From Cetobacterium sp. NK01 (lineage in GTDB: Bacteria; Fusobacteriota; Fusobacteriia; Fusobacteriales; Fusobacteriaceae), in the NCBI RefSeq assembly GCF_024506395.1, contig NZ_JANIBO010000001.1, positions 1,364,001 to 1,428,000 of the forward strand: DNA of 64,000 bases, in the 5' to 3' direction. A model generated the notes under the pieces. It was not told where the DNA came from. It saw nothing but the letters and a program-made list of their open reading frames with translations, and made no database searches. Both the position numbers and the translations under genes were made by a program. Shown here in pieces: positions 338-33,667 of the stretch (its first letter is position 1; every line of letters begins with the position of its first letter).

Positions 338-1732
338 TTAATTATTGTTTAATTTTTTTAAACCACTTGTTAAAGCGTGATTTTCTAAAATATCATGAAC
401 ATTAATAGTACTATAATATTCAACAACTTCTACATTAGAGACAATGTTACTGTCACTAATAATGATATCATAGTTTTCATGATTTTGGATAATATTTTTT
501 TTATGAAAAAAAGTAGCTTCAACATCAAAGTTGATATTAGGAAGAAATACTCTAAGAGATTTTTTAAAAATAATCTGATCAGTAGCAGCAACTTCGTTAA
601 AAAGAAGTAACACATTTTTTATATTAGAAAAGTTTTCATCTATAATAATTCTTCTAATAGCATAAACAATCATAAACTTATCAACTAAATACAAATCATA
701 ATTAAAATCTTTTAAAATAGATTCAAAATTATTTAAAATAAATTTGTGTGGCTTATTAAACGATACATTAATAATTTTTATAATTTTATTATTATATTTA
801 AAAAATGAAAGATATAACTTATTAAAAAGCATTTTTTCAAGCTCTTTATTTTTTATATCTATTTTAAATTTCAATTTAATAGATTCAATGAGATTAAAAC
901 AAATACTTTTTATACTATTTTCTAAAATTCCCTTTTCCAAATAAAGATTCGTTAAAAAATGAGAAAGTTGATTTTTAAACTCTTCATTAAACTCTGGACC
1001 AAAAGTATCTATATTTTCTCTAATCTCTTTAAACTTATCTAAAGTTAAATTTGATTTATCAATAAAATTAAATCCTCCAAAAATATTTATACAAATTTCT
1101 AAAGAGCATATAAAAGAGAGTAAAAAATAGTTAATAGAAATATTAGAGTTTTTAAGTATAGGATAAAGTTGAGAAAGTCGTTCTTTTGTATCAAATGGTT
1201 TAATTGTATTTAAAAGATTTTTTCTTGCAGGAACAAGAATATCCTCCTCAATAAAAAGTTTCATAAGCTTTTTATAAAAATTTTGTTTATCTTTAAGTGA
1301 GAGTTCTTTTAAAACAAGGCCTTTTCCATGGTTATATTCATAGGTACTTCCATTCTTTGAAAATTCATCTTTAACATTTTGAAAGGATCTTAAAATAGTG
1401 CTTCTTGAAATATCTAAAATCTCTTTTTCTCTTTCTAAATTTAAAAACCCAGTGGAAATAAATTTAATAAAAAGATAATCAATTTTTTCATCAAAAGTTA
1501 AAATTGTAAAATTTTCAAAAACTATCTCTAGTTCTTTAGGTGTTAGTTTTAAAAAATAAATGTCATGAAATTTTGAAATAATAGGAAGTTCAATTGATTC
1601 TAAAAACTCATTAAGTTGTGTAATTGTTTTGATAATTGAGCTTCGCTCAACGTTAAAATACAGTTGCATATCATCAATAGACATCTCATTTTGAGATAAA
1701 ACTTTTAGAACATTAGCAGCTGTTGTATTCAT
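338..1732 (-). CDS. Mga/BglG-like transcriptional regulator
   Basis: A 464-residue protein. I place the start at ATG 1732 (MNTTAANV), because paralogues begin with the same residues and a G-rich Shine-Dalgarno (complement of 1738-1746) precedes it; an in-frame start 11 codons upstream lies before this site. The N-terminus has an HTH region. A second HTH near residues 110-150 has the pattern LDISRSTILRSF, followed by a short linker with YEYNHGKGL. The central all-alpha part contains FGGFNF, shared with the paralogue at 4254. The C-terminus (about 370-460) has the alternating fold KNVLLLFNEV...YDIIISD seen in EIIB-like domains of Mga/MtlR-type regulators, but has no phosphorylatable Cys. Probable DNA-binding regulator; target unknown. 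A weaker alternative is a BglG-type antiterminator. Confidence 0.75.
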   Translation of the reverse strand: MNTTAANVLKVLSQNEMSIDDMQLYFNVERSSIIKTITQLNEFLESIELPIISKFHDIYFLKLTPKELEIVFENFTILTFDEKIDYLFIKFISTGFLNLEREKEILDISRSTILRSFQNVKDEFSKNGSTYEYNHGKGLVLKELSLKDKQNFYKKLMKLFIEEDILVPARKNLLNTIKPFDTKERLSQLYPILKNSNISINYFLLSFICSLEICINIFGGFNFIDKSNLTLDKFKEIRENIDTFGPEFNEEFKNQLSHFLTNLYLEKGILENSIKSICFNLIESIKLKFKIDIKNKELEKMLFNKLYLSFFKYNNKIIKIINVSFNKPHKFILNNFESILKDFNYDLYLVDKFMIVYAIRRIIIDENFSNIKNVLLLFNEVAATDQIIFKKSLRVFLPNINFDVEATFFHKKNIIQNHENYDIIISDSNIVSNVEVVEYYSTINVHDILENHALTSGLKKLNNN

Positions 1733-1737
1733 TAATA

Positions 1738-1747
1738 CCACCCCCCG
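1738..1747 (-). promoter_or_regulatory. G-rich Shine-Dalgarno with perfect complement to an sRNA-like loop
   Basis: The minus strand reads CGGGGGGTGG just upstream of ATG 1732. This is an unusually long G-run for a ribosome site. It is exactly complementary over 10 bases to CCACCCCCCG at 51039-51048, in the loop and flank of a terminator hairpin. Confidence 0.6.
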
Positions 1748-1949
1748 ACTATAATAGTTTATCATAGATAGAGCAAGATTAGAATAGTAACACTATAAAA
1801 ATGACTAAAGATCCAATATATCACTTTTGCTTCTCTAAAAAGAAAAATTGAAATATTTAATTTATAGATTATATATGATACTATAAATGCATATAAGAGA
1901 TTAATTAAATCTCTATAAAGCTTTTATAAATGCGGAGGGGAACAGAATT

Positions 1950-2246: not shown

Positions 2247-2275
2247 TTGCAGAAAAAGATGTAAGTAGATATAAT
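2247..2275 (+). promoter_or_regulatory. Promoter of the riboswitch-controlled regulator
   Basis: TTGCAG (2247-2252), a 17-base spacer and TATAAT (2270-2275). Transcription would begin about 2282, a few bases before the aptamer, as expected for a leader riboswitch. Confidence 0.7.
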
Positions 2276-2289
2276 ATAAAAAATAAAAA

Positions 2290-2357
2290 TATACGGCAAA
2301 CTATGAGAAATCATAGGACGCAAAGCTATAGGGCCTTTAAAATGGTAGCCAGTTGCA
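2290..2357 (+). ncRNA. c-di-GMP-I (GEMM-I) riboswitch aptamer
   Basis: The sequence shows the class I core in order: GCAAACT, then a hairpin CTATGA-GAAA-TCATAG with a GNRA tetraloop (2301-2316), then GGACGCAAAGC (2317-2326), the GGGCC segment, and ATGGTAGCC (2342-2350), closed by AGTTGC (2351-2356), which can pair with GCAAACT. These are the conserved parts of the GEMM-I consensus: GNRA tetraloop, the invariant GACGCAAAGC junction and the P3 tetraloop-receptor side. It is followed directly by a Rho-independent terminator and then a small winged-helix gene. Class I aptamers bind c-di-GMP. The sequence suggests transcriptional attenuation, but the on/off direction cannot be read safely: aptamer and terminator share only about one base. 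Confidence 0.9.
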
Positions 2358-2393
2358 CTTATTCTTTAATCAAGGGGTAAGTGTTTTTTTTTT
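2356..2393 (+). terminator. Riboswitch expression-platform terminator
   Basis: Stem CACTTATTC (2356-2364) with GGGTAAGTG (2375-2383), including G-U pairs, followed by ten Ts. It starts at the last base of the aptamer closing stem, so ligand binding could affect its formation. Confidence 0.8.
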
Positions 2394-2423
2394 GAAAAAA
2401 TATTTTAAAGAAGGAAATAAAAA

Positions 2424-2446
2424 ATATCTATAATATAAATAGATAT
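2424..2446 (+). promoter_or_regulatory. Palindromic operator candidate ahead of the winged-helix gene
   Basis: Perfect 8-base inverted repeat ATATCTAT / ATAGATAT with a 7-base spacer, between the riboswitch terminator and the gene. A TATAAT-like hexamer (2429-2434) lies inside it. MarR-like proteins usually bind such dyads in their own promoters, so autoregulation is plausible but inferred. Confidence 0.45.
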
Positions 2447-2473
2447 AGATTAAATAATTAGGGGTGTTGTATT

Positions 2474-2764
2474 ATGCATAAAACAGAGATAAAAAAGGAG
2501 TTAAATAAATATCATATTAATTCCACGCATGAAAAGATATTGAGAAGAATAAATGAAAACCCAGGGATAACATTATGCGAATTGACAAAGGGGATAGAAC
2601 TATCAAAGGGTTCAGTATCAATTTGTATAAAAAAATTAGAAGAGAAAAATTTAATTCAAAAATATGGAACATTTGATGATAAAAGAGTTTTTAGACTTCA
2701 TCCAACAAAAATGGGAAAAGATCTATGTAGTAGAATAAAATTAATGCAAATATTAAAAATATAA
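2474..2764 (+). CDS. Small MarR-like winged-helix regulator under c-di-GMP riboswitch
   Basis: A 96-residue protein. Residues about 18-80 form a winged helix: a scaffold helix (THEKILRRINENPG), the recognition-helix region (CELTKGIELSKGSVSICIKKLEEKNLI) and a wing (KYGTFDDKRVFRLHPT). This is the MarR/HTH_20 pattern. Canonical MarR proteins are about 140 residues with N- and C-terminal dimer helices; this one keeps only short extensions, so its dimer interface must differ or be small. GGGGTG precedes the ATG. Its leader holds a c-di-GMP-I aptamer and terminator, then a palindrome, so both second-messenger attenuation and autoregulation are likely. No partner gene follows before the terminator; targets must be elsewhere. 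Confidence 0.8.
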   Translation: MHKTEIKKELNKYHINSTHEKILRRINENPGITLCELTKGIELSKGSVSICIKKLEEKNLIQKYGTFDDKRVFRLHPTKMGKDLCSRIKLMQILKI

Positions 2765-2796
2765 CCTCTATAATTTTTATAGAGGTTACATTTTTA
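2762..2796. terminator. Bidirectional terminator
   Basis: Perfect 12-base arms TAACCTCTATAA (2762-2773) and TTATAGAGGTTA (2777-2788), T-rich on both sides. It lies between converging genes ending at 2764 and 2794. Confidence 0.85.
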
Positions 2797-4176
2797 TATG
2801 GGTAAAGAATATTGTTTTATAAAAGGGTAACGATTTATAACTTTTAGTTTTTCAAAAGTTATAACTGATAGATTTTCATCATTTGATATATAAGAATCTA
2901 ATTCAGACTCCATTATAAATTTAGATATTCGAATGTTTTCTTTTATAAAGAAAGTATTTTGAATAATAGGATGTAAAAACTTAGGAATTTCTTTAAAAAC
3001 AACAATAGTATCAGTAAGTTCTGAAATATTACTTTTATTTAAATTCCAAAGATAAAGAAAAATAATATTAGATAGTTGAATATTAAAATATATTTTTTTT
3101 AATTCTAAAAAAAGAGCAGCACATTCAAATTTAATTTTATTATCTAAAGATAGATTTAAAAATGAAAGATCAAACATACCTAAGAAAGAACTTTCTTTAC
3201 TTGCTGTATTAACTCTATTTAAAAATTTTTCAAAAAAATTATCTTCAGATACACTGAAAGAGACATTTTTTAAAAAAAGTTCTTTTAATTTCAGGTTTTC
3301 TTTTTTTAGTGAAACACCATCTTTTTTTAATGTTCCATTGCAAAATTGTAAAGTTAAAGTAAAAATTCTTATATATTTAATTGGAAAATCTCCTAATAGT
3401 GAATTTTTGAAAAATTTGTATGCCCTTTCCATAGTTTTCATTGGAAAAACATCAAGAAAATATTTTTTAAACTCTTCAAAAGAAAGAGTTTTAATTTTAT
3501 TTAAAGAGTTTTCATAACCATAAACTATATATAAGCTTTTAATTAATTTTTTATTGTTTATAAATATATCAAAATCAAATGTATAAGTAAAATAATCAAT
3601 CTCATTATTTAATTTTATATAGATATTTTGTTGAAAAAATTCAGAATAATCTTGAGACATTATAAATGGAAGTTCATCAACTTCAATTAAAAATTTAAAA
3701 AGATACGATAAAGAACAAATTTTTTGGTCATCACAATCACCTAAAATACTAATTCCTTTACTAGGAATACTAGATATTTCCAAGTTATAAATTTTCAATT
3801 TTTTTTTAATACTTATTAAATCATCATTTAAAGTTCTTCTTGAAACATTGAAGATAATAGATAGAGTATTAAGGTTTAAATCATAATCTCTTAACAGTTT
3901 TAAAATAATATAAAAAATCCGATCATCTTTGCTAAAAATTTGATGTTTTTTTAAAGTTTTAAAAATAGTTTTATTATTATTAATCTCATTAATTATACTA
4001 GCTAATGAGTTGTTAGAATTTTTATTATCAATATAGTGATAAATTTGTTTTATATATAAAATTACATTTTGTTTATTCATTTTTAAGAATTTTGCAATGA
4101 ACTCTATATTTTTTTCTGGAAGAAAATTTAATAATCGATATATTCTAATATGAGTAGTTGTAATATTTATTTTCAT
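2794..4176 (-). CDS. Mga/BglG-like transcriptional regulator (second subfamily)
   Basis: A 460-residue protein. An N-terminal HTH lies at about residues 10-50 and a second, clearer one at about 95-135 with FNVSRRTLNDDLISIKKKL, followed by the linker phrase SIPSKGISILGD. The same second HTH plus SKG/NKG-G-x-x-L-x-G linker occurs at 30587 and 31954, so these form one subfamily. The C-terminus (about 385-455) resembles a degraded EIIB-like domain with no Cys. GGG lies upstream of ATG 4176. It converges on the riboswitch-controlled winged-helix gene and shares its terminator. Cytoplasmic DNA-binding regulator; target unknown. PRD phosphorylation histidines are not obvious, so sugar-PTS control is not supported from sequence alone. 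Confidence 0.7.
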   Translation of the reverse strand: MKINITTTHIRIYRLLNFLPEKNIEFIAKFLKMNKQNVILYIKQIYHYIDNKNSNNSLASIINEINNNKTIFKTLKKHQIFSKDDRIFYIILKLLRDYDLNLNTLSIIFNVSRRTLNDDLISIKKKLKIYNLEISSIPSKGISILGDCDDQKICSLSYLFKFLIEVDELPFIMSQDYSEFFQQNIYIKLNNEIDYFTYTFDFDIFINNKKLIKSLYIVYGYENSLNKIKTLSFEEFKKYFLDVFPMKTMERAYKFFKNSLLGDFPIKYIRIFTLTLQFCNGTLKKDGVSLKKENLKLKELFLKNVSFSVSEDNFFEKFLNRVNTASKESSFLGMFDLSFLNLSLDNKIKFECAALFLELKKIYFNIQLSNIIFLYLWNLNKSNISELTDTIVVFKEIPKFLHPIIQNTFFIKENIRISKFIMESELDSYISNDENLSVITFEKLKVINRYPFIKQYSLPI

Positions 4177-4253: not shown

Positions 4254-5648
4254 TTATTTATTAGAACATAGTTTTTTTAAAGTATTTTCTAAAATATGAC
4301 TATTAATAGCAGATAAAATCTGGATAGGATTAAAGCTATTTACAATTAAAGTATTTATATTTAAACTAGGTTCATCACTTAAAATTAGGTCATATTTATT
4401 TTTATAATTTTCAGGATTTAATTTATAAAAAAAAGTGGACTCAATATCAAAATTAAATTTTTTACTATAATCAGCTAGATTATCTTTAAGGTATCTATCA
4501 TCTGAAATAACGACTTCGTTAAATAATAAAAGAATATTTTTTAGAGAACTTTTATGATGTTCAACAATTATTTTAGTTAAAATTTGAATAATAGATATCT
4601 TGTCACAAAAGAATAACTTTATATTATTATAATCTAAAATATCATCAAAAATATTTAAAAGAAGTTTTTCATTGTCGTTTATTATAATGTTTCGAACTTT
4701 AAAAATATAGTTATCATGTTTAAAAAGTGAAAAGCATAATTTTTTTAATAAAACTTTTTCTAAAACAGGATCTAAATTATGTAAGTCTAGTTTATCTTTT
4801 AAGTTATTAATAACTGTTAAAGCTTTTTTTAATATATTTGGTTCAAAGTTAATATCATTATTTATTAAAGAGACTACAAAGAAAAAAACCTGATTTTGAT
4901 AGTTAGAGTTATAATCTTTTAAAGTAGTTTTTATAACTTTTTCTAATTTAATATACTTATTATAATCATAATCTTTTTTAAAGTTAAATCCTCCAAAAAC
5001 GTCTATAGATATATAAAGAGAACATAAAAAAGATATGATAAAGTGCGTAGTAGGAATATCTAAAGTTTTAAATATTGTATAGAGTTTATTGAGTAAAGAC
5101 TTTATATTGTAATCCTTAATTAAATCAGTTATGAAAATAGAATGATTTAAAGAAAAGTCACATTTTACAAAAAATTTAACTAATTTTTTTGAAAAAATAG
5201 CTTTGTCCATTTCAGATAAAAAAGCTAGTCTTAGTCCTCTTCCTACACTATATTCATATTGTGATCCATTATTTTCTAATGTCCTTTTTACTTCATTAAA
5301 ATATCTTATTATTGAACTTCTAGATAGATCTAATCGTTCTTTTTCAGCTTCTAAATTAATAAATTTATTATGTATGAATTTTATGTATAAGTAGTCTACG
5401 ATCTCATCACTGGTGATGAAATCATTTCGCTTGAAAAGAGTTTCCCATTGAAACTTTGAAAGTTTAAGAGAATAATTGGTATTATTAAGTTCTATTAAAG
5501 GAAGTTTTTCATCCTTTAAAAAAGAGTTAATAGAATTGATATTTTTGTAAATAGATTTTTTTTCTAAGTTTAAATATAAAGAAAATTCATCTAAAGAAAA
5601 CTCTCCTTGTGAAAGAAGTGTTAATATATTTATATTTGTTGTATTAAT
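4254..5648 (-). CDS. Mga/BglG-like transcriptional regulator, probable ATT start
   Basis: About 464 residues from the proposed start. It is a close paralogue of 338-1732: second HTH LDLSRSSIIRYFNEVK, linker YEYSVGRGLRL, central FGGFNF, and a C-terminal EIIB-like segment NILLLFNEVVIS...YDLILSD. Paralogues start at MNTT; here the aligned codon (5646-5648) is ATT, 6 bases after GGGGTG, and the bases around it match the paralogue GGTGGTTCA-ATG-AATACAACA with a single inserted A. In-frame ATG 5681 and GTG 5657 exist upstream but lack a convincing ribosome site. If ATT is not used, the protein gains 11 or 3 N-terminal residues. ATT starts are known (infC) and keep translation low. Function otherwise as for the family. 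Confidence 0.7.
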   Translation of the reverse strand: MNTTNINILTLLSQGEFSLDEFSLYLNLEKKSIYKNINSINSFLKDEKLPLIELNNTNYSLKLSKFQWETLFKRNDFITSDEIVDYLYIKFIHNKFINLEAEKERLDLSRSSIIRYFNEVKRTLENNGSQYEYSVGRGLRLAFLSEMDKAIFSKKLVKFFVKCDFSLNHSIFITDLIKDYNIKSLLNKLYTIFKTLDIPTTHFIISFLCSLYISIDVFGGFNFKKDYDYNKYIKLEKVIKTTLKDYNSNYQNQVFFFVVSLINNDINFEPNILKKALTVINNLKDKLDLHNLDPVLEKVLLKKLCFSLFKHDNYIFKVRNIIINDNEKLLLNIFDDILDYNNIKLFFCDKISIIQILTKIIVEHHKSSLKNILLLFNEVVISDDRYLKDNLADYSKKFNFDIESTFFYKLNPENYKNKYDLILSDEPSLNINTLIVNSFNPIQILSAINSHILENTLKKLCSNK

Positions 5649-5751
5649 TTGAATCACCCCATTATAGGTTATATCATACAAGAAAAATAAAGAAAATATG
5701 AAAAATTTTATATTTAACCTAAAAATACATATAAAAATCTTCTATAAATAA

Positions 5752-25834: not shown

Positions 25835-25887
25835 CTTGTAACTCAACTAAATTGAGTATATAAAAATAAACAGTGGAGGTATTAAGT

Positions 25888-26415
25888 ATGAAGAAATTAT
25901 TATCAGCATTATTTATTTTAGGATCAGTAGCAGCATTAGCAGAAACAGATTTAAGTCACGGTGGAGGAAACGGTGGAGGAAACGGTGGAGGGAATCCATC
26001 AGATTGCTATACGAGTGCATGTAAAGTGGAAGAGGATATGTATATAAAAGTACAAATACCTACACAATTAAAAATTAAATGTTTAGAGAATATTAATTTA
26101 GGAAAATGGTGTGGAACAAAAACTATAAAAGGAGAAGCGAGTTATAATTTAGAAGGTGAAGAAAATGCAAAAGTAAAAGTTAGTTTTAAAGAAGAAGAAG
26201 TTGAGTTTAAGAAAAAAACAAAAGATGGAAATCATGGAGCAGGGTTCTATGCAAAGATGTCTTTAGATTCAAAACATAAAATTTTAGATGATGAAGGAAA
26301 GGCAGATGGAATTGTAAAAGCTACACTAAATCCTGTAGATCACAATGTAAAACTAAAAGCAGGTGGAGAATACTTAGCAAAAGCTACTTTAATAGCTGAA
26401 TATGACTCATTCTAG
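25888..26415 (+). CDS. Major fimbrial subunit candidate with Gly-rich N-terminus and four cysteines
   Basis: A 175-residue protein from ATG 25888 behind GGAGG. Signal peptide 1-18 with a clear ALA cleavage site. The mature protein begins with a Gly-rich spacer of three GGGN units (residues 25-36), followed by Cys40, Cys45, Cys65 and Cys75. The rest is predicted beta-rich: QIPTQLKIKCLENINLGKW, then SYNLEGEENAKVKVSF. It resembles DUF4402-type fimbrial subunits, but I cannot prove the family. Four cysteines plus a thioredoxin at the operon end suggest disulfide bonds. The strong hairpin directly after the stop would make this the most abundant product. Possibly the main pilin. Confidence 0.65.
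   Translation: MKKLLSALFILGSVAALAETDLSHGGGNGGGNGGGNPSDCYTSACKVEEDMYIKVQIPTQLKIKCLENINLGKWCGTKTIKGEASYNLEGEENAKVKVSFKEEEVEFKKKTKDGNHGAGFYAKMSLDSKHKILDDEGKADGIVKATLNPVDHNVKLKAGGEYLAKATLIAEYDSF
25960..25995 (+). repeat. Three 12-base tandem repeats in the pilin gene
   Basis: GGTGGAGGAAAC at 25960-25971 and 25972-25983, and GGTGGAGGGAAT at 25984-25995. The unit is in frame and encodes GGGN; slippage would change spacer length without breaking the frame. Confidence 0.8.
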
Positions 26416-26428
26416 GAATAAAATATTT

Positions 26429-26457
26429 AGGGCATAGTTCAGTACTATGCCCTTTTA
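26429..26457 (+). terminator. Attenuator hairpin after the major pilin gene
   Basis: Arms AGGGCATAGT (26429-26438) and ACTATGCCCT (26444-26453), 5-base loop, then TTTTATAT. It sits inside the fimbrial operon, 14 bases after the pilin stop and before the next gene, so it probably reduces downstream transcription, a common way to favour the major subunit. Confidence 0.8.
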
Positions 26458-26473
26458 TATAGGAGTGGTGAAG

Positions 26474-27310
26474 ATGAGAAAAAAATTAATGTTAATATTT
26501 TTAATCTTATGTAATTATTTATTTTCTTTTGATATGGTAGGTCAAATATATAATTTACAAAAAAGAGGGTCAAGTTATAAGGGAACTCTTGATATTAAAA
26601 ATAATAGTAAGAAAAAAAATTCTAGAATACAATTAATTCCATCTAAAGATATCGAATTGTTAGGAGTTAATGGACATAAAAATGAAAATAATATCTATGA
26701 AATAAATACTAATAGTTTAAAAATAGATTTTATATATAAAGATAAAATTAATTCTATAGAAGAAAAAATTCTAGTAGGTAAATTAGAATTTTTAAATGAA
26801 ATTGGTAGAGTAGAAAATCTATATGGAAATATAGCTGTAGAATTTAGAAAACTGGGAAGTATAGATATGAAAGTAAAAGGAGATATAGATTTTGGTATTA
26901 TTTCCTCAAAGATTCCAAAAAATGGTTTTAAAAGTAAAAGAGACTCACAAGTTGATATAACTTTAGATATAGATAAAAGAGATGTGGGAAATACAAAGAT
27001 GTATTTTCAGTATCCTAAGGAAGTAAGTATGGCAAATGGTCAACTAATTGTAAAAATTGAAAGTAAAGAAAAAGGAGACTTTGTTTTAGAAAAAGTAGAA
27101 AATGGAAAACACGTAAAAATAGTGGGATTTATTCCTAAAAAAGAAAATACTAGAGAAAAAATTAAACTTGAAGGAAGAGTATATTCAACAGCACCAAATG
27201 TATCTCCAGGAAAATATAAAGAGAGTGTAATTTTAAAAGCTTACTATGAATATTTAGATTATTCGATTGAAAATAAGAGCTCTGATAAAAAAGTAATAAT
27301 TAGAAGATAA
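26474..27310 (+). CDS. Minor/tip fimbrial subunit-like secreted protein
   Basis: A 278-residue protein. The start is ATG 26474 behind AGGAGTGG; an earlier in-frame ATG lies in the attenuator stem. Signal peptide 1-19. The first part (20-140) has beta-rich segments such as SYKGTLDIKNNS. The second part (about 145-278) is DUF4402-like: IDMKVKGDIDFGIISSKIPKNG, then MYFQYPKEVSMANGQLIVKI and APNVSPGKYKESVILKAYYEY. The closing G-x-Y-x-x-x-V-x-L-x-x-x-Y-Y pattern is usual in pilin subunits that end in a beta strand. No cysteine is visible. It is probably an anchoring, adaptor or tip subunit between the major pilin and the usher. Confidence 0.6.
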   Translation: MRKKLMLIFLILCNYLFSFDMVGQIYNLQKRGSSYKGTLDIKNNSKKKNSRIQLIPSKDIELLGVNGHKNENNIYEINTNSLKIDFIYKDKINSIEEKILVGKLEFLNEIGRVENLYGNIAVEFRKLGSIDMKVKGDIDFGIISSKIPKNGFKSKRDSQVDITLDIDKRDVGNTKMYFQYPKEVSMANGQLIVKIESKEKGDFVLEKVENGKHVKIVGFIPKKENTREKIKLEGRVYSTAPNVSPGKYKESVILKAYYEYLDYSIENKSSDKKVIIRR

Positions 27311-27331
27311 TTTAGATGGTGGGGAGGGACA

Positions 27332-29950
27332 ATGAAAAGAAAAAAAAAAATAATTGTTTTATTTATTATATTTAAAACAATTATATTTTCAGCGCCTGAA
27401 GAGGCATATATAGAATTAAAGATGGGAAGACAAATAAATGAATTTTATAGAGTATTGATAGATGAAGGAAAACAAGAAGTATATGTAGGAATAGGAGAGT
27501 TTATAGACTTTATGAGATTTCCAGATTTAAAATTCGATAAAAAAAAATTAAGAATAAAAGGAAGATTAGATGGAAATATAAGTATTGATACTAGAATTTC
27601 TAAAGAGTCTATTATAGAAATGGATGATGATATTTTTTTAAAAGTAGAAGATTTAAAGAGGTATTTTCATATAAAAGATTATACTTGGGATGAAGAGAGG
27701 TATATTTTAAATTTAAATCCAAATTTTAAAACACAAAAAGAACAAGAGGAGGAATTAAATGCCCAAAGATCTCTTTTAGCTATAGCTAAAAGAGAAGAGG
27801 AATTACTGGGAAATGATGACTATATAAAAGCTAAAAAAAGTGTTTTAAGTCCTGGAATATTAAAATTGGTTTACATCAATGATGATTTTCAAGAAAATGA
27901 TTACTCTTTTGACATAGATTATGGAACAGAGCTTTTATATGGAGAGTTTCAAGTTTCTCAAAAGATATATCCAGAAAGTAGTTTGGAATACATAAGATTA
28001 CAATATAGCGAGATATTTGGAGATTATTTTTTAACATTTGGAGATTTTTATTTAGAAAGTGATAGTATATTTGATGCTGAAAGAAGTTTAAGAGGAGTTA
28101 GTTTTTCAAAAAATGAATATTACGGAGTACGAATAGACAATAGTACTATAATAGAAGGTCAAGCTTATAATGCAAACTTGGTAGAGTTATATAGAAACGG
28201 ATTTCTATCAGATTTTCAGCTTATGACAGGAAATGATTTTAGATTTGATGTAAGAAATGTCTCTTCAGCAGATAGATATACAGTAAAGATTTTTTATAGA
28301 GATGGGAGAGAGGAAACAAAAGAAATATATATACTTGGAAATCAAAATATATTAAATAAAGGTGAAAGTGATTTTGTTTTACAAGGAGGACAAGGAATAC
28401 AGGACAAAAAAATACAATACTTAGGTAAGTATTCCTATGGATTAACTAAAAATTTGACTAGTACTATTGGAACCTCATTTTTAGAAAATGATGAATCAGA
28501 AAAATATAATGTTCTTGAGGGAGGGTTGATTTATAGATTTGGACTAGAAAAATATCCTACACTAATCTCAGGAACAATTTTAGAGGAATTAAATGATAGT
28601 GAATTAAATTTTAAAGGGTTTGCTGAACAAAAATTACCTTGGGAAACCAATTTAATATTAAGATATGAAACCTATGGAAGTAAAACAGCTGAAAGGTTAA
28701 GAAGAGAAAAAACATATAATATAGAGCTTAATAAAACATTCAAACGTTTAAGTGGAAGTTTAGGTTATACTAAAGATATGTATATAGATGACGAGTATGA
28801 AGAGATTTATTTAAATCTAGATTATGTATTAGCAAGTAATCTTATGTTAAGTTTGACTAATGAATATTATAGAAATAATATTAGAAATGAAGATGTTACA
28901 AAATTAGAGGGATATGGCGTGGAAGCAAGGATGACATATTCTGCATCAAATGGAATAGTAGCTATATTAGAGGGAAAAATAAATTATGAAGAAAACGAAA
29001 GAATAGATGATGAAATAAAATTAGGAGTAGCTCGAACACCTACTGCTACGGGATTTTTTAAGAATATAGATACAACTTTTGAAGTTGGACATTCAACAGA
29101 AAAAGGAACATTTTTTGAAATGAGATTTACATATATATTTGATAATAATATATATATTGAATTCCCTGATATAAAAACGGAAGATAAGAAGACTAGAGTG
29201 GGAGGAAGAGTAGAAAAAGCTTTTTATTTAGGAAATCCATTGCTGCCTATAAACAATGACAATGTAACAGATGGATGGGTAGAAGGAAAAGTTTTTGTAG
29301 ATGAAAATGGGAATGGGATAATGGATGGAAAAGAAGCAATATATGAAGGGGCAGAAGTAGTAACTCCAGGTGGAGATGGATTAGTAGATCAAAAAGGTAA
29401 ATATATAGTTGGAAATATAAGTAATAGGGATATTCATACAATAGAAGTTAATAGAGAAACTATTGATCCTATGCTAATTCAAGGCAAAGAGATGATTAGA
29501 TTTAAAGGTGGCATATCTTCTGGAGTAAAAGTAGATATACCTTTAGTACCAGTTTCTATGGTATCTGGTTTTATTGAGAGTGGAAAAGAAATCGAAGAAA
29601 GAAGATACAATGGAGTACTATCAGGAATAGATGTAATCTTGAAAAAAGACAATGAAGAGATAAAAAGAACTCAACCAGAAATAGATGGATATTATTTCTT
29701 TGAAGATATATTGCCAGGAGATTATGTTGTTGAATTAGTACCATCAAGTAAGCGTTATAAAGGTGACTTTGATAAGCAAAAAATAGAGATAAAGATAAAA
29801 ACTGGTAGAGAAGGAGATTATTATGAAGATAATAATTTCTTAGTAAAAAATATTGAGATAGTTGAAGATGAAATTTTAGATGAAGAAGAAAAATCAGAAG
29901 AGTTAACTCAAGAAAATACACAGGAGGGAGAAAATGAAAAAAATAGTTAA
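27332..29950 (+). CDS. Outer-membrane usher-like protein
   Basis: An 872-residue protein, close to the 800-900 of fimbrial ushers. Signal peptide about 1-20. N-terminal domain (25-140) with EAYIELKMGRQIN and VYVGIGEFIDFM; a charged helical insert (about 145-170, EQEEELNAQRSLLAIAKREEE); then a large beta-barrel region (about 185-630) with usher-like phrases LTFGDFYLESD, RGVSFSKNEYYGVRI, YNANLVELYRNGFL and YTVKIFYRDGREE. The C-terminus has a SdrD-type segment VEGKVFVDENGNGIMDG and a carboxypeptidase-regulatory-like domain YNGVLSGIDVILKKDNEE, then a Glu-rich tail. Context (chaperone and subunits) supports secretion and assembly of fimbriae. It resembles CS1/alternate ushers more than FimD. It overlaps the thioredoxin gene by 17 bases. 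Confidence 0.7.
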   Translation: MKRKKKIIVLFIIFKTIIFSAPEEAYIELKMGRQINEFYRVLIDEGKQEVYVGIGEFIDFMRFPDLKFDKKKLRIKGRLDGNISIDTRISKESIIEMDDDIFLKVEDLKRYFHIKDYTWDEERYILNLNPNFKTQKEQEEELNAQRSLLAIAKREEELLGNDDYIKAKKSVLSPGILKLVYINDDFQENDYSFDIDYGTELLYGEFQVSQKIYPESSLEYIRLQYSEIFGDYFLTFGDFYLESDSIFDAERSLRGVSFSKNEYYGVRIDNSTIIEGQAYNANLVELYRNGFLSDFQLMTGNDFRFDVRNVSSADRYTVKIFYRDGREETKEIYILGNQNILNKGESDFVLQGGQGIQDKKIQYLGKYSYGLTKNLTSTIGTSFLENDESEKYNVLEGGLIYRFGLEKYPTLISGTILEELNDSELNFKGFAEQKLPWETNLILRYETYGSKTAERLRREKTYNIELNKTFKRLSGSLGYTKDMYIDDEYEEIYLNLDYVLASNLMLSLTNEYYRNNIRNEDVTKLEGYGVEARMTYSASNGIVAILEGKINYEENERIDDEIKLGVARTPTATGFFKNIDTTFEVGHSTEKGTFFEMRFTYIFDNNIYIEFPDIKTEDKKTRVGGRVEKAFYLGNPLLPINNDNVTDGWVEGKVFVDENGNGIMDGKEAIYEGAEVVTPGGDGLVDQKGKYIVGNISNRDIHTIEVNRETIDPMLIQGKEMIRFKGGISSGVKVDIPLVPVSMVSGFIESGKEIEERRYNGVLSGIDVILKKDNEEIKRTQPEIDGYYFFEDILPGDYVVELVPSSKRYKGDFDKQKIEIKIKTGREGDYYEDNNFLVKNIEIVEDEILDEEEKSEELTQENTQEGENEKNS

Positions 29951-30446
29951 AATAATAGTTATGATGTTAGCGGTTTTTAGTATAGTATTTTCCAATGAAA
30001 GAGATCCAAGAGAAGAGGAATTAACATATTTAATAGGTGAAAAAGTTGATAACTTTGAGGTAACATCTTTAGATGGAACAAAAACTATAAGTTTAGATGA
30101 TTTAAAAGGAAAGAAAGTATTTTTAAATTTTACAACAACATGGTGTCCAGATTGTATAAAAGAAAAGGAGATATTAGGTCCTGAATATGCAGAGAAGTAT
30201 AAGGATAGTAATGTTGAATTTATAATTGTATTTGGTCCATACAAAAGCGATAACAAAGAAAAAGTAGAAGAGTATATGAAGAAAAATGGATATACATTTA
30301 CAGCATACTATGATACAGAGGGAAAAGAGCTTTATAATCAATTTGGTGTAGTAAATATTCCAACAACATTTTTTATAAATGAAGAGGGAGTTTTAGAAGA
30401 TGTAAATGTAGAATCAGGATATAAAGAGATGAAATATTTCAAATAG
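29934..30446 (+). CDS. TlpA-like thioredoxin-fold protein of the fimbrial operon
   Basis: A 170-residue protein with a signal peptide (1-20). The thioredoxin fold covers about 33-165. The active site is WCPDC (Cys72-Pro-Asp-Cys75 approximately) within FLNFTTTWCPDCIKEKE, and the cis-proline loop is VVNIPTTFFI. This is the TlpA/ResA pattern of membrane-exposed thiol-disulfide oxidoreductases acting outside the cytoplasm. It is coupled to the usher gene (17-base overlap, AGGAGGGAG site). The major pilin has four cysteines, so the likely job is pilin disulfide formation or correction. Whether it oxidises or reduces cannot be told from sequence. Confidence 0.88.
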   Translation: MKKIVKIIVMMLAVFSIVFSNERDPREEELTYLIGEKVDNFEVTSLDGTKTISLDDLKGKKVFLNFTTTWCPDCIKEKEILGPEYAEKYKDSNVEFIIVFGPYKSDNKEKVEEYMKKNGYTFTAYYDTEGKELYNQFGVVNIPTTFFINEEGVLEDVNVESGYKEMKYFK

Positions 30447-30586
30447 TGTGAAAAAAAATTTAAATATAAAAAAAAATTTTTCATAGAGAAAAAAAATATA
30501 ATAAAAATAAATTTTTTTTCATAAAGACTCATTTTGAAAAAAAAGATACAATATCTATATAAATTATTATTGGGGGAGGATATCAA

Positions 30587-31912
30587 ATGGTTATAAATGA
30601 AAGATGCATAAATATATTATCTGTTTTAAATGAAACAAATGAATTTACTTTAAAAAAACTTTCAGAGAATTTTAATGTCCACACAAGAACAATAAGATAT
30701 GATATAGATAATATAAATTATATTTTAAAAATGTATAAACTAAATACAATAAAAAAATGTGAAAAAGGTGTTTTTACTGTAAATTTAAAAAATAATGAGA
30801 TAAATAAAATAATCAATGATTTTAGTGGAATGTTTTCTGAAAATAGAAGAAGATATTTGAAGCTTAAACTTTTTTCAAAATATATAGTGAATCTAACAAA
30901 AGAAGCAGATTATTTAAATACATCTAGAACAACACTAAAAAAGGATTTAATAGTAATAAAAGAAGAGTTTTTAAAAAAATCTTTAGAGATAAAAGAACTT
31001 CCATCAAAAGGGATAAAGATTGTAGGAAATGAAGAGATTATATCAGAAGTTTTAGAAAAAGAGATATTTGAAACAATGGAAAAACAGTTTATAAATCTTC
31101 CAAACTTAATAAAAAATATTGTTGGAAAAATAGTTGGAGATATAGCACCAGATGTTTTAAGAAATAGAGTTAAAGAGGTTCTTGGAGAGAACTATAGTAG
31201 AAACTCTTATAATAAAGTGTTTTGTAAATTAGCAGCTGTAAATACAAGACATAAATTAGATAAAAACATAAAAAAGTATAATACAGATGAGATTACTGAA
31301 TTTATTCTTTGTGAATTAGGAGAAGAGTTTATAAAAAAAGTAGTTGGAGAAAATAACGATAAAAATAATAAAAAAGATAAAATAATAGAGATAAAAAGCA
31401 TATTAAAAGATGTAATTGCAGAGTTAAAATTAGAAGATGAAGAAGATCTTCTAAATAGTCTTCTTTTAGAAATCAACGATGTTAGAGAGAGACTTCCAAT
31501 TCCAGAAAAAATATGTGAAACTAATTTTTATAAAGAGTTTTGTGAAAAGATAAAACATACAGAACTTATAAAAAAGGATACACAGAGCGTATTTTATATT
31601 CTATATAATAATTTATTATTAAAAAATTATAAATCTTTTCAAGAAATGAAAATTTTATTTGTTTCAGATGAGATTGATAGTGTAAAAAATATTATATTAG
31701 GAAAATTAAAAAACATGTTTAATTTTCAAGAGGTAGATAAAGTATCCTCTCATATATTTGAGATATTTGGATGTGAGAAAGACTATGATTTAATAATAAC
31801 AAGTGGAAATATAAATGATATACTTGATACACCAGTATATAGAATAAATAGATTTCCATTAGAATCAAATCTTTTAGATTTAAAATTTTTTATTTTAAAA
31901 AATATAAAGTAA
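30587..31912 (+). CDS. Mga/BglG-like transcriptional regulator beside the fimbrial operon
   Basis: A 441-residue protein. An N-terminal HTH_11-type winged helix (about 8-60: FTLKKLSENFNVHTRTIRYDIDNINYIL) is clearer here than in the paralogues and is the DeoR/BglG form. A second HTH is at about 105-135 (LNTSRTTLKKDLIVIK), then the linker KELPSKGIKIVGNEE. The C-terminus (about 345-440) is EIIB-like, with MKILFVSDEIDS and YDLIITSGN, without Cys. No obvious PRD histidines. G-rich ribosome site GGGGGAGG. It lies 140 bases after the thioredoxin gene and converges on another regulator. I infer control of the neighbouring surface genes, as Mga does for streptococcal surface proteins. Confidence 0.78.
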   Translation: MVINERCINILSVLNETNEFTLKKLSENFNVHTRTIRYDIDNINYILKMYKLNTIKKCEKGVFTVNLKNNEINKIINDFSGMFSENRRRYLKLKLFSKYIVNLTKEADYLNTSRTTLKKDLIVIKEEFLKKSLEIKELPSKGIKIVGNEEIISEVLEKEIFETMEKQFINLPNLIKNIVGKIVGDIAPDVLRNRVKEVLGENYSRNSYNKVFCKLAAVNTRHKLDKNIKKYNTDEITEFILCELGEEFIKKVVGENNDKNNKKDKIIEIKSILKDVIAELKLEDEEDLLNSLLLEINDVRERLPIPEKICETNFYKEFCEKIKHTELIKKDTQSVFYILYNNLLLKNYKSFQEMKILFVSDEIDSVKNIILGKLKNMFNFQEVDKVSSHIFEIFGCEKDYDLIITSGNINDILDTPVYRINRFPLESNLLDLKFFILKNIK

Positions 31913-31916
31913 TATT

Positions 31917-31955
31917 AAAAGGATTAAATCCAATTGTAGGATTTAATCCTTTTTT
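31917..31955. terminator. Bidirectional terminator between two regulators
   Basis: Arms AGGATTAAATCC (31920-31931) and GGATTTAATCCT (31939-31950), 7-base loop, T-run on both strands. Confidence 0.9.
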
Positions 31956-33351
31956 ATGTTGGTATCATTCTTTTATAGTTAGGAATAGGAAAAAATAGGT
32001 TTTTAACAGGGATGTTATTTTCGTAAATTTTAATGTTTTCTATTGTAATAATACTATTGATTGTATTATTTTTTTTATAATGATTAAAATCTTTTATATC
32101 AACTGATTCATAAATTTTAATATTATGTTTTTTATAAATCTCTTCAACAAGAGTCGGAATAATGGATTTTGGAAGATATTTAAATACAAAAATATTTTTA
32201 TTTTTATTAGTTTCAATTTTAGAAAAATTGTACCATATAAAAATACTTTCAAAAAGTGTAAATTTAGGAATAATAAGATTTATCTCCTTTGTCATTTCAT
32301 CAATGTTAGAATTAGCAAAATAATTTAAATTTAGGTTTAAAAAAGAATAATCTTCAATATTAAAGAGATCTTTAAGATAACTATAATTTATCCACGGATT
32401 AACTATATGAAAAAAATTAGGATCTTTATATACGTGATCTCCAATATATTTTGCAAAAATTGGACGAATTTCTTCAGCTTTATTATGAACAGATTTATTG
32501 AAACGACTTTTAAAATATTTAAAGATATCGATTAGATCGAAAATTCCGCTAAGAGAAGTAGAAGAGATATCCTTGAAAACACTATTTTTTAAAAATGTTA
32601 AAATTTCATAAAAAAAATCAGTGTTATAGTAATTGGGTTTATATTTTAAAGATTCTTGAAGAGATATATCTTCAATTTTTTTTTCTTGATTAGATGCTCT
32701 TAAACAGATATAAAAACAAAATAATGCTATTTCAGAATGAGTTGAAAAAGGACAATCTAATAGAGATATAAATGCTGTTATATCTTTTCTAATTTTATAA
32801 AAATTTTTAATTTTTATAAAACTTGTTAACTCCTCTCTTAATTTTTTTGGTAAAAAGTCTTTTTCTATAAAAAATTTAAAAATAAGAAGATAAGTGAATT
32901 TATTTATAGCATAGGGAGACCCTAAAAGAGTTAATCCTTTATTAGTTATCTTGATTTTCAAGTTATATGGATCAATAATTTTAGATATTTCTTCATAGTA
33001 GTTATTTAAATTTCGCTTTGTAAGTTCTAAATCTTCGCAAATATGCGAAAGTTTAATTTGCCGATCCTTAACTAATCTAAAAATAAGATAAAATATTTTT
33101 TGATTTTTAGTAAATTGTTGTGAATTTTTTAAAATATTTTTAGAGTTAGGAAAGTCTTTGATTTTTTTTATGATAGATTCTGTTTTTAAATCTCCTGACG
33201 ATTCAAGAAAAAGTTCGCAGTAAATATCTTCGAGATGTATTTTAGTGTGTTGATTAGAAAGTAGAAAAATATCACTAATCTCTTTGATTGAAGAAACTTG
33301 GTTATTTTTTATAAATTTTAATATTTGAAGATGTTTGCTGTTAATATACAT
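31954..33351 (-). CDS. Mga/BglG-like transcriptional regulator divergent from the surface-protein operon
   Basis: About 465 residues from ATG 33351 (MYINSKHLQILKF), 7 bases after the run GGGGGG (complement of 33359-33364); an in-frame TTG upstream lies before this site. N-terminal HTH about 15-50, second HTH about 110-145 (CEDLELTKRNLNNYYEEI), linker KITNKGLTLLGS, then a helical part. The C-terminus (about 385-460) has NIFVFKYLPKSIIPTL and INSIITIENIKIY. It belongs to the same subfamily as 2794-4176. It is divergent from the barrel/giant protein operon, sharing a 316-base intergenic region, so it is the best candidate for its regulator. Function inferred from position. Confidence 0.72.
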   Translation of the reverse strand: MYINSKHLQILKFIKNNQVSSIKEISDIFLLSNQHTKIHLEDIYCELFLESSGDLKTESIIKKIKDFPNSKNILKNSQQFTKNQKIFYLIFRLVKDRQIKLSHICEDLELTKRNLNNYYEEISKIIDPYNLKIKITNKGLTLLGSPYAINKFTYLLIFKFFIEKDFLPKKLREELTSFIKIKNFYKIRKDITAFISLLDCPFSTHSEIALFCFYICLRASNQEKKIEDISLQESLKYKPNYYNTDFFYEILTFLKNSVFKDISSTSLSGIFDLIDIFKYFKSRFNKSVHNKAEEIRPIFAKYIGDHVYKDPNFFHIVNPWINYSYLKDLFNIEDYSFLNLNLNYFANSNIDEMTKEINLIIPKFTLFESIFIWYNFSKIETNKNKNIFVFKYLPKSIIPTLVEEIYKKHNIKIYESVDIKDFNHYKKNNTINSIITIENIKIYENNIPVKNLFFPIPNYKRMIPT

Positions 33352-33667
33352 AAGTTTTCCCCCCAATTATAAATTAAATAAAAATAAATAACGTGACAAT
33401 ATCTACTGTTTTTTTATTTTGTTCCTTTTTTTATAGTTGTAAAAAAATACAAAGAATAAAAAATAATTAAAAAAAGTAAGTTAATATAAAAAAGAATTTT
33501 TTATAATTTTATTTTATAAGTAATAAAAATATAGTACTTAAAAGTATATAAAAGTGTTCGTTTAATACTTTTTTTATTTTGTTCTAAAACTTTTTTTCGG
33601 TAAAAAGGAATGAAAAGAAAACGATAGAAAAAACGTTAAAAGAAAATATATAAAAGGGGTGAAGTGA
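33352..33667. promoter_or_regulatory. Intergenic control region with a 14-base direct repeat
   Basis: This 316-base gap divides the Mga-like gene from the barrel gene. TTTTTATTTTGTTC occurs twice on the plus strand, at 33411-33424 and 33571-33584, exactly 160 bases apart. The rest is A/T-rich with no single convincing promoter. The copies may be sites for the adjacent regulator; chance in A/T-rich DNA is possible, but the GTTC end is specific. Confidence 0.4.

Follow-up and report, generated by a model that had tools for sequence, protein, structure and literature searches.

Near its start, the window (the whole stretch of DNA analysed, 64,000 nucleotides from a Cetobacterium genome of 3.1 Mb) carries a compact unit. 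A putative promoter leads into a GEMM-I (c-di-GMP-I) aptamer, which passes without a linker into an intrinsic terminator; beyond this lie a ribosome-binding site and a single gene with a terminator of its own (Table 1).

Table 1. Features of the riboswitch-regulator unit, in window coordinates
Feature	Position	Strand	Basis or remark
Putative promoter, TTGCAG (2247-2252) - 17 - TATAAT (2270-2275)	2247-2275	+	Letters; conservation of TATAAT
GEMM-I (c-di-GMP-I) aptamer	2285-2360	+	RF01051, 60.2 bits; helix P2 covaries
Intrinsic terminator, 13-pair stem (2355-2384) and U tract	2355-2394	+	5' arm starts within aptamer and includes C2356; covariation
Inverted repeat, 8-base arms, ATATCTAT-N7-ATAGATAT	2424-2446		Probably chance, not part of the device
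Ribosome-binding site, AGGGGTG region	2460-2466	+	TTAGGGGTGTT conserved in 8 of 9 orthologs
MarR-fold winged-helix regulator, 96 residues	2474-2764	+	PF01047; fold; orthologs
Terminator 3' of the regulator gene, 12 pairs	2762-2788	+	Terminator scan

The aptamer is the sole match in an Rfam scan of the whole window, with all 87 positions of the RF01051 model aligned (cut-off 35 bits, E = 2.9e-9). The initial annotation had proposed such an aptamer and had named its covariance score as a check; that check has now been run and brought no refutation. The ligand contacts in the Vc2 riboswitch are G20, A47 and C92 (PMC4744006), and a variant of the GEMM-I riboswitch for c-AMP-GMP has also been described (PMC9481103). 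When the aptamer was aligned by hand with the Vc2 sequence, all three contacts were present, at what we take to be the equivalent positions G2296, A2323 and C2356. The G at Vc2 position 20 fits c-di-GMP and not the c-AMP-GMP variant; c-di-GMP is the predicted ligand.

The terminator stem is followed by T10. In the surrounding region of 951 bases four terminator-like sites are seen, against 0.2 expected from shuffles, and the stem covaries among orthologs, with 95.4% of cells paired, a value as high as which was reached in none of 500 shuffles. The terminator predicted earlier at this place is thus borne out. The proposed promoter fares less well. Its letters are there, and the TATAAT box is unchanged in eight of the nine orthologous leaders, but the -35 box has only three of six matches and the pair was therefore not called in a consensus promoter scan. 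If it is used, transcription would start at about 2282. A second candidate promoter past the terminator (TTTAAA-19-TATAAT, the latter at 2429-2434) was rejected, being weak and absent from the shorter ortholog leaders.

A minimal MarR-fold regulator in a conserved unit

The gene behind the leader was first described as MarR-like, and this holds: the frame is complete and its product scores 40.2 bits against the Pfam MarR domain (gathering cut-off 24.6). It is not the broken remnant of a longer MarR protein, since a terminator lies right at the end of the frame and all orthologs have 96-98 residues. The AlphaFold model is a good winged helix (pLDDT 85.5) and in a fold search matches MarR proteins over all 96 residues, with Z-scores of 15 for FabT and MepR. 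The regulator shares with these both the winged-helix fold and the DDKR wing, but typical MarR proteins are some 40 residues longer. Its first helix (residues 3-12) is short and the chain ends after the helix 79-93, just where the last dimerisation helix of a typical MarR would follow. In size it is close to the archaeal protein 1ub9 (100 residues, Z = 13.1). The MarR_EPS family (TIGR04176) likewise contains short MarR-like regulators linked to surface structures, but with 26.4 bits against an NCBI cut-off of 88 the present protein is not a member. A phage origin was also considered and rejected: no relative was found among viral contigs, and matches to PHROG were only weak.

Two paralogs of the regulator were seen. 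One, of 82 residues, lies on the C. somerae plasmid NZ_CP092520.1 (L200, 5972-6220), without a riboswitch; an autotransporter gene and an RND efflux operon are close by. The other, in the host genome itself (C1:46561-46824), has two in-frame stops when aligned and is probably a decayed copy.

Orthologs of the regulator are found in eight other Cetobacterium genomes, at 50-88% identity. A GEMM-I aptamer in the same orientation lies upstream of the gene in all nine genomes that carry it, an arrangement that is not to be put down to chance. Most of these genomes also keep the flanks: a cold-shock gene lies 5' of the unit in the nearest five genomes, and a convergent gene for a 460-residue HTH regulator lies behind it in eight of nine. 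Elsewhere in the family, outside the genus, a profile made from the nine orthologs gave no better than marginal matches. Given the constant linkage within the genus, the unit of riboswitch and gene is real and genus-restricted. Next to relatives in Peribacillus, Paenibacillus and Lactobacillus no c-di-GMP riboswitch occurs.

The riboswitch gene is surrounded by an array of HTH_11/Mga-like regulators of 460-475 residues, at window positions 338-1765, 2794-4176 and 4254-5681 (all on the reverse strand) and, at the window's upstream edge, at -1145 to 249. This family, with as many as nine members in one genome, gave no match in 29 genomes outside Cetobacterium.

The inverted repeat between terminator and gene was found exactly where the initial annotation had placed it. 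Its suggested role as a second layer of control, with the regulator also binding the repeat and so regulating its own gene, appears very improbable. Related repeats do occur in two near relatives, but with spacings of 9 and 8 where the window has 7, and in the six other orthologs the palindrome is absent or unrecognisable. In addition, an arm of the same length turned up in 101 of 1000 dinucleotide-shuffled versions of the 79-nucleotide stretch around it, which is 85% A+T. The half-site pattern, which fits exactly the copy in one genome (G006) and not that of the window, was no commoner than its reversed control across 12 genomes. With arms at chance level, a drifting spacing, poor conservation and no enrichment, the palindrome was rejected as an operator and autoregulation is unsupported.

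Overlap of aptamer and terminator and the direction of the switch

The terminator stem begins at G2355, one base 5' of the C92 equivalent, so that the leader has aptamer bases shared with the 5' arm of its terminator, a feature of transcriptional ON riboswitches. Throughout the genus the arrangement is similar: among the 53 leaders in which a terminator could be detected, 49 have a stem that begins at C92 or earlier. Elsewhere in the family the stem includes the C92 equivalent in 37 of 62 leaders, and many of the leaders there are built on a different platform and lack an overlapping terminator; the aptamer, therefore, does not force the overlap. When the nine leaders are aligned, columns 76-82, which form the lower part of the terminator 5' arm, do not vary, and pair changes there occur on the 3' side only, two-sided changes being confined to the stem above it. 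Such invariance fits a dual service of the arm to aptamer and terminator.

With the C92 equivalent inside the terminator arm, c-di-GMP would more likely promote read-through. An OFF switch would need an antiterminator, and none is seen in the leader. We consider it probable, therefore, that c-di-GMP, through this class I riboswitch, switches on a transcript of a single gene, that of the minimal MarR-fold transcription factor. While c-di-GMP is low, the nascent RNA would fold the terminator stem and transcription would halt at the U tract. Once c-di-GMP is bound, C2356 and the bases just 3' of it would be held in the ligand pocket and the P1 region, leaving a weaker terminator and allowing the polymerase to read through into the regulator gene. 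The regulator would then adjust a surface-attachment programme, together with the cell's other c-di-GMP riboswitches. The initial annotation had spoken of attenuation; the terminator that this implies is present, but the position of the C92 equivalent makes a lowering of expression doubtful.

An ON switch of this logic is experimentally proven for the Bc2 RNA upstream of cap in B. thuringiensis (PMC4933901). There too a class I aptamer is followed by an intrinsic terminator, and c-di-GMP raises read-through, the direction that we infer for the Cetobacterium leader. Bc2 controls an adhesin, however, whereas the Cetobacterium leader precedes a regulator. Vc2, upstream of tfoX in Vibrio, is likewise a class I riboswitch before the gene of a transcriptional regulator, but it does not control termination and TfoX is not a MarR-fold protein (PMC6366702). 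Cd1, upstream of the flgB operon of C. difficile, again combines a class I aptamer with an intrinsic terminator, but as an OFF switch on a structural operon and not on a single regulator.

True attenuation in the manner of Cd1, with c-di-GMP favouring the terminator and repressing the regulator, would agree with the OFF behaviour of the functional class I copies of C. difficile, although switch direction, as the same review cautions, is not transferable between species (PMC6366702). It would agree, too, with the predicted fold of the leader, in which P2 and P3 coexist with the full terminator (-25.8 kcal/mol). We nevertheless regard it as unlikely: the leader shows no antiterminator able to form without ligand, and the placement of the C92 equivalent in the terminator arm, here and in nearly all leaders of the genus, argues against it.

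The same fold prediction indicates that freeing C2356 costs about 4 kcal/mol and leaves an 11-pair hairpin of -21.5 kcal/mol, so that the predicted competition between aptamer and terminator is modest. Helix P1, weak and A+U-rich, likewise speaks against the ON reading. The overlap in this leader is small, and the ON direction is for that reason no more than probable. A small overlap could also mean that aptamer and terminator are uncoupled or nearly so, the terminator being strong at any ligand level or expression being set by another factor or by a downstream promoter such as the weak pair 3' of the terminator. For this there is a precedent in Bc1, which is reported not to respond in vivo (PMC11218506). 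We think it less probable still than an OFF switch, since aptamer and terminator are both retained in orthologs down to 50% protein identity and the downstream TATAAT does not extend to the shorter leaders.

Sister riboswitches and the c-di-GMP network

The ON switch proposed here would not act alone. The host genome encodes eight GGDEF and six EAL domains and has six GEMM-I copies; across the genus there are 58 copies, in 11 of 12 genomes. A following gene could be read for 51 leaders. In nine of them it encodes the MarR-like regulator described here, in two a regulator of the HTH_11/Mga-like type and in one an HxlR regulator, while in the remainder it mostly encodes a secreted pilin-like protein, a chaperone-like protein or a membrane protein with solute-binding domains. 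The pilin-like proteins resemble DUF4402, one of the two tested passing the cut-off. For the chaperone-like protein a PDB sequence search with its profile gave nothing useful, but the best fold match of its model is CsuC of the archaic chaperone-usher pili; at a TM-score of about 0.46, this is a match at the level of the fold family. In a genome lacking the MarR-like gene (G004), a riboswitch, an HxlR regulator and a chaperone-like gene stand in a row (L195, 5693-7025). The sister riboswitches thus adjoin both pilus-type genes and regulators, and this association makes it probable that the small regulators act on attachment pili. The likely role of the unit is to couple c-di-GMP to an adhesion or pilus programme through a small transcription factor.

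A pilus-like cluster (pilin-like, 872-residue usher-like and thioredoxin-like genes) is also present in the window at 25873-33366, 23 kb from the riboswitch and next to two HTH regulators. In two related genomes (L196, 7497-8849, and L086) an HTH_11 regulator beside such a cluster has its own GEMM-I riboswitch; its copy in the window (30587-31912) has none in the Rfam scan.

GEMM-I leaders elsewhere show further variety. On the C. somerae plasmid NZ_CP092521.1 (L201, 4001-4156) a leader of promoter and riboswitch that shares 79% DNA identity with window positions 2251-2396 precedes a large surface-protein-like gene, which suggests copying of the leader between genes. Other genera of the Fusobacteriaceae have a second type of leader, GUUGCCAAAACUUUUUUAGAGG (L115-L130 and others), with no terminator over the aptamer and a ribosome-binding site close behind it; leaders of this type may act on translation. 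GEMM-I aptamers arranged in tandem, with a distance of about 170 bases between them, were seen at three loci (L142, L150 and L154), with one secreted-protein gene downstream. Behind one pilin-like riboswitch locus, a segment (L006, about 2070-2250) resembles by eye a cobalamin riboswitch.

More tentatively, the leaders might form a two-tier, RNA-based c-di-GMP circuit. Riboswitches would switch on pilin and chaperone operons and, in parallel, a minimal MarR factor (HxlR or HTH_11 in sister species) acting on the same attachment genes, giving a feed-forward loop; we hold this to be possible but less than even. The literature searched yielded no description of a riboswitch-sensed feed-forward loop of this sort for Fusobacteriota, nor any study of c-di-GMP riboswitches in that phylum. 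For the unit itself, a c-di-GMP riboswitch before a very small regulator, the type of device is already known, while the wiring is new.

The unit adds an example, conserved within the genus, of a second-messenger riboswitch that governs a transcription factor and not an effector gene. It also opens a genus-wide view, with several GEMM-I copies per genome, their terminators nearly all lying over the ligand-binding cytosine, before pilus-type genes and regulators. The control of attachment by c-di-GMP in a common fish-gut symbiont thereby becomes directly testable.
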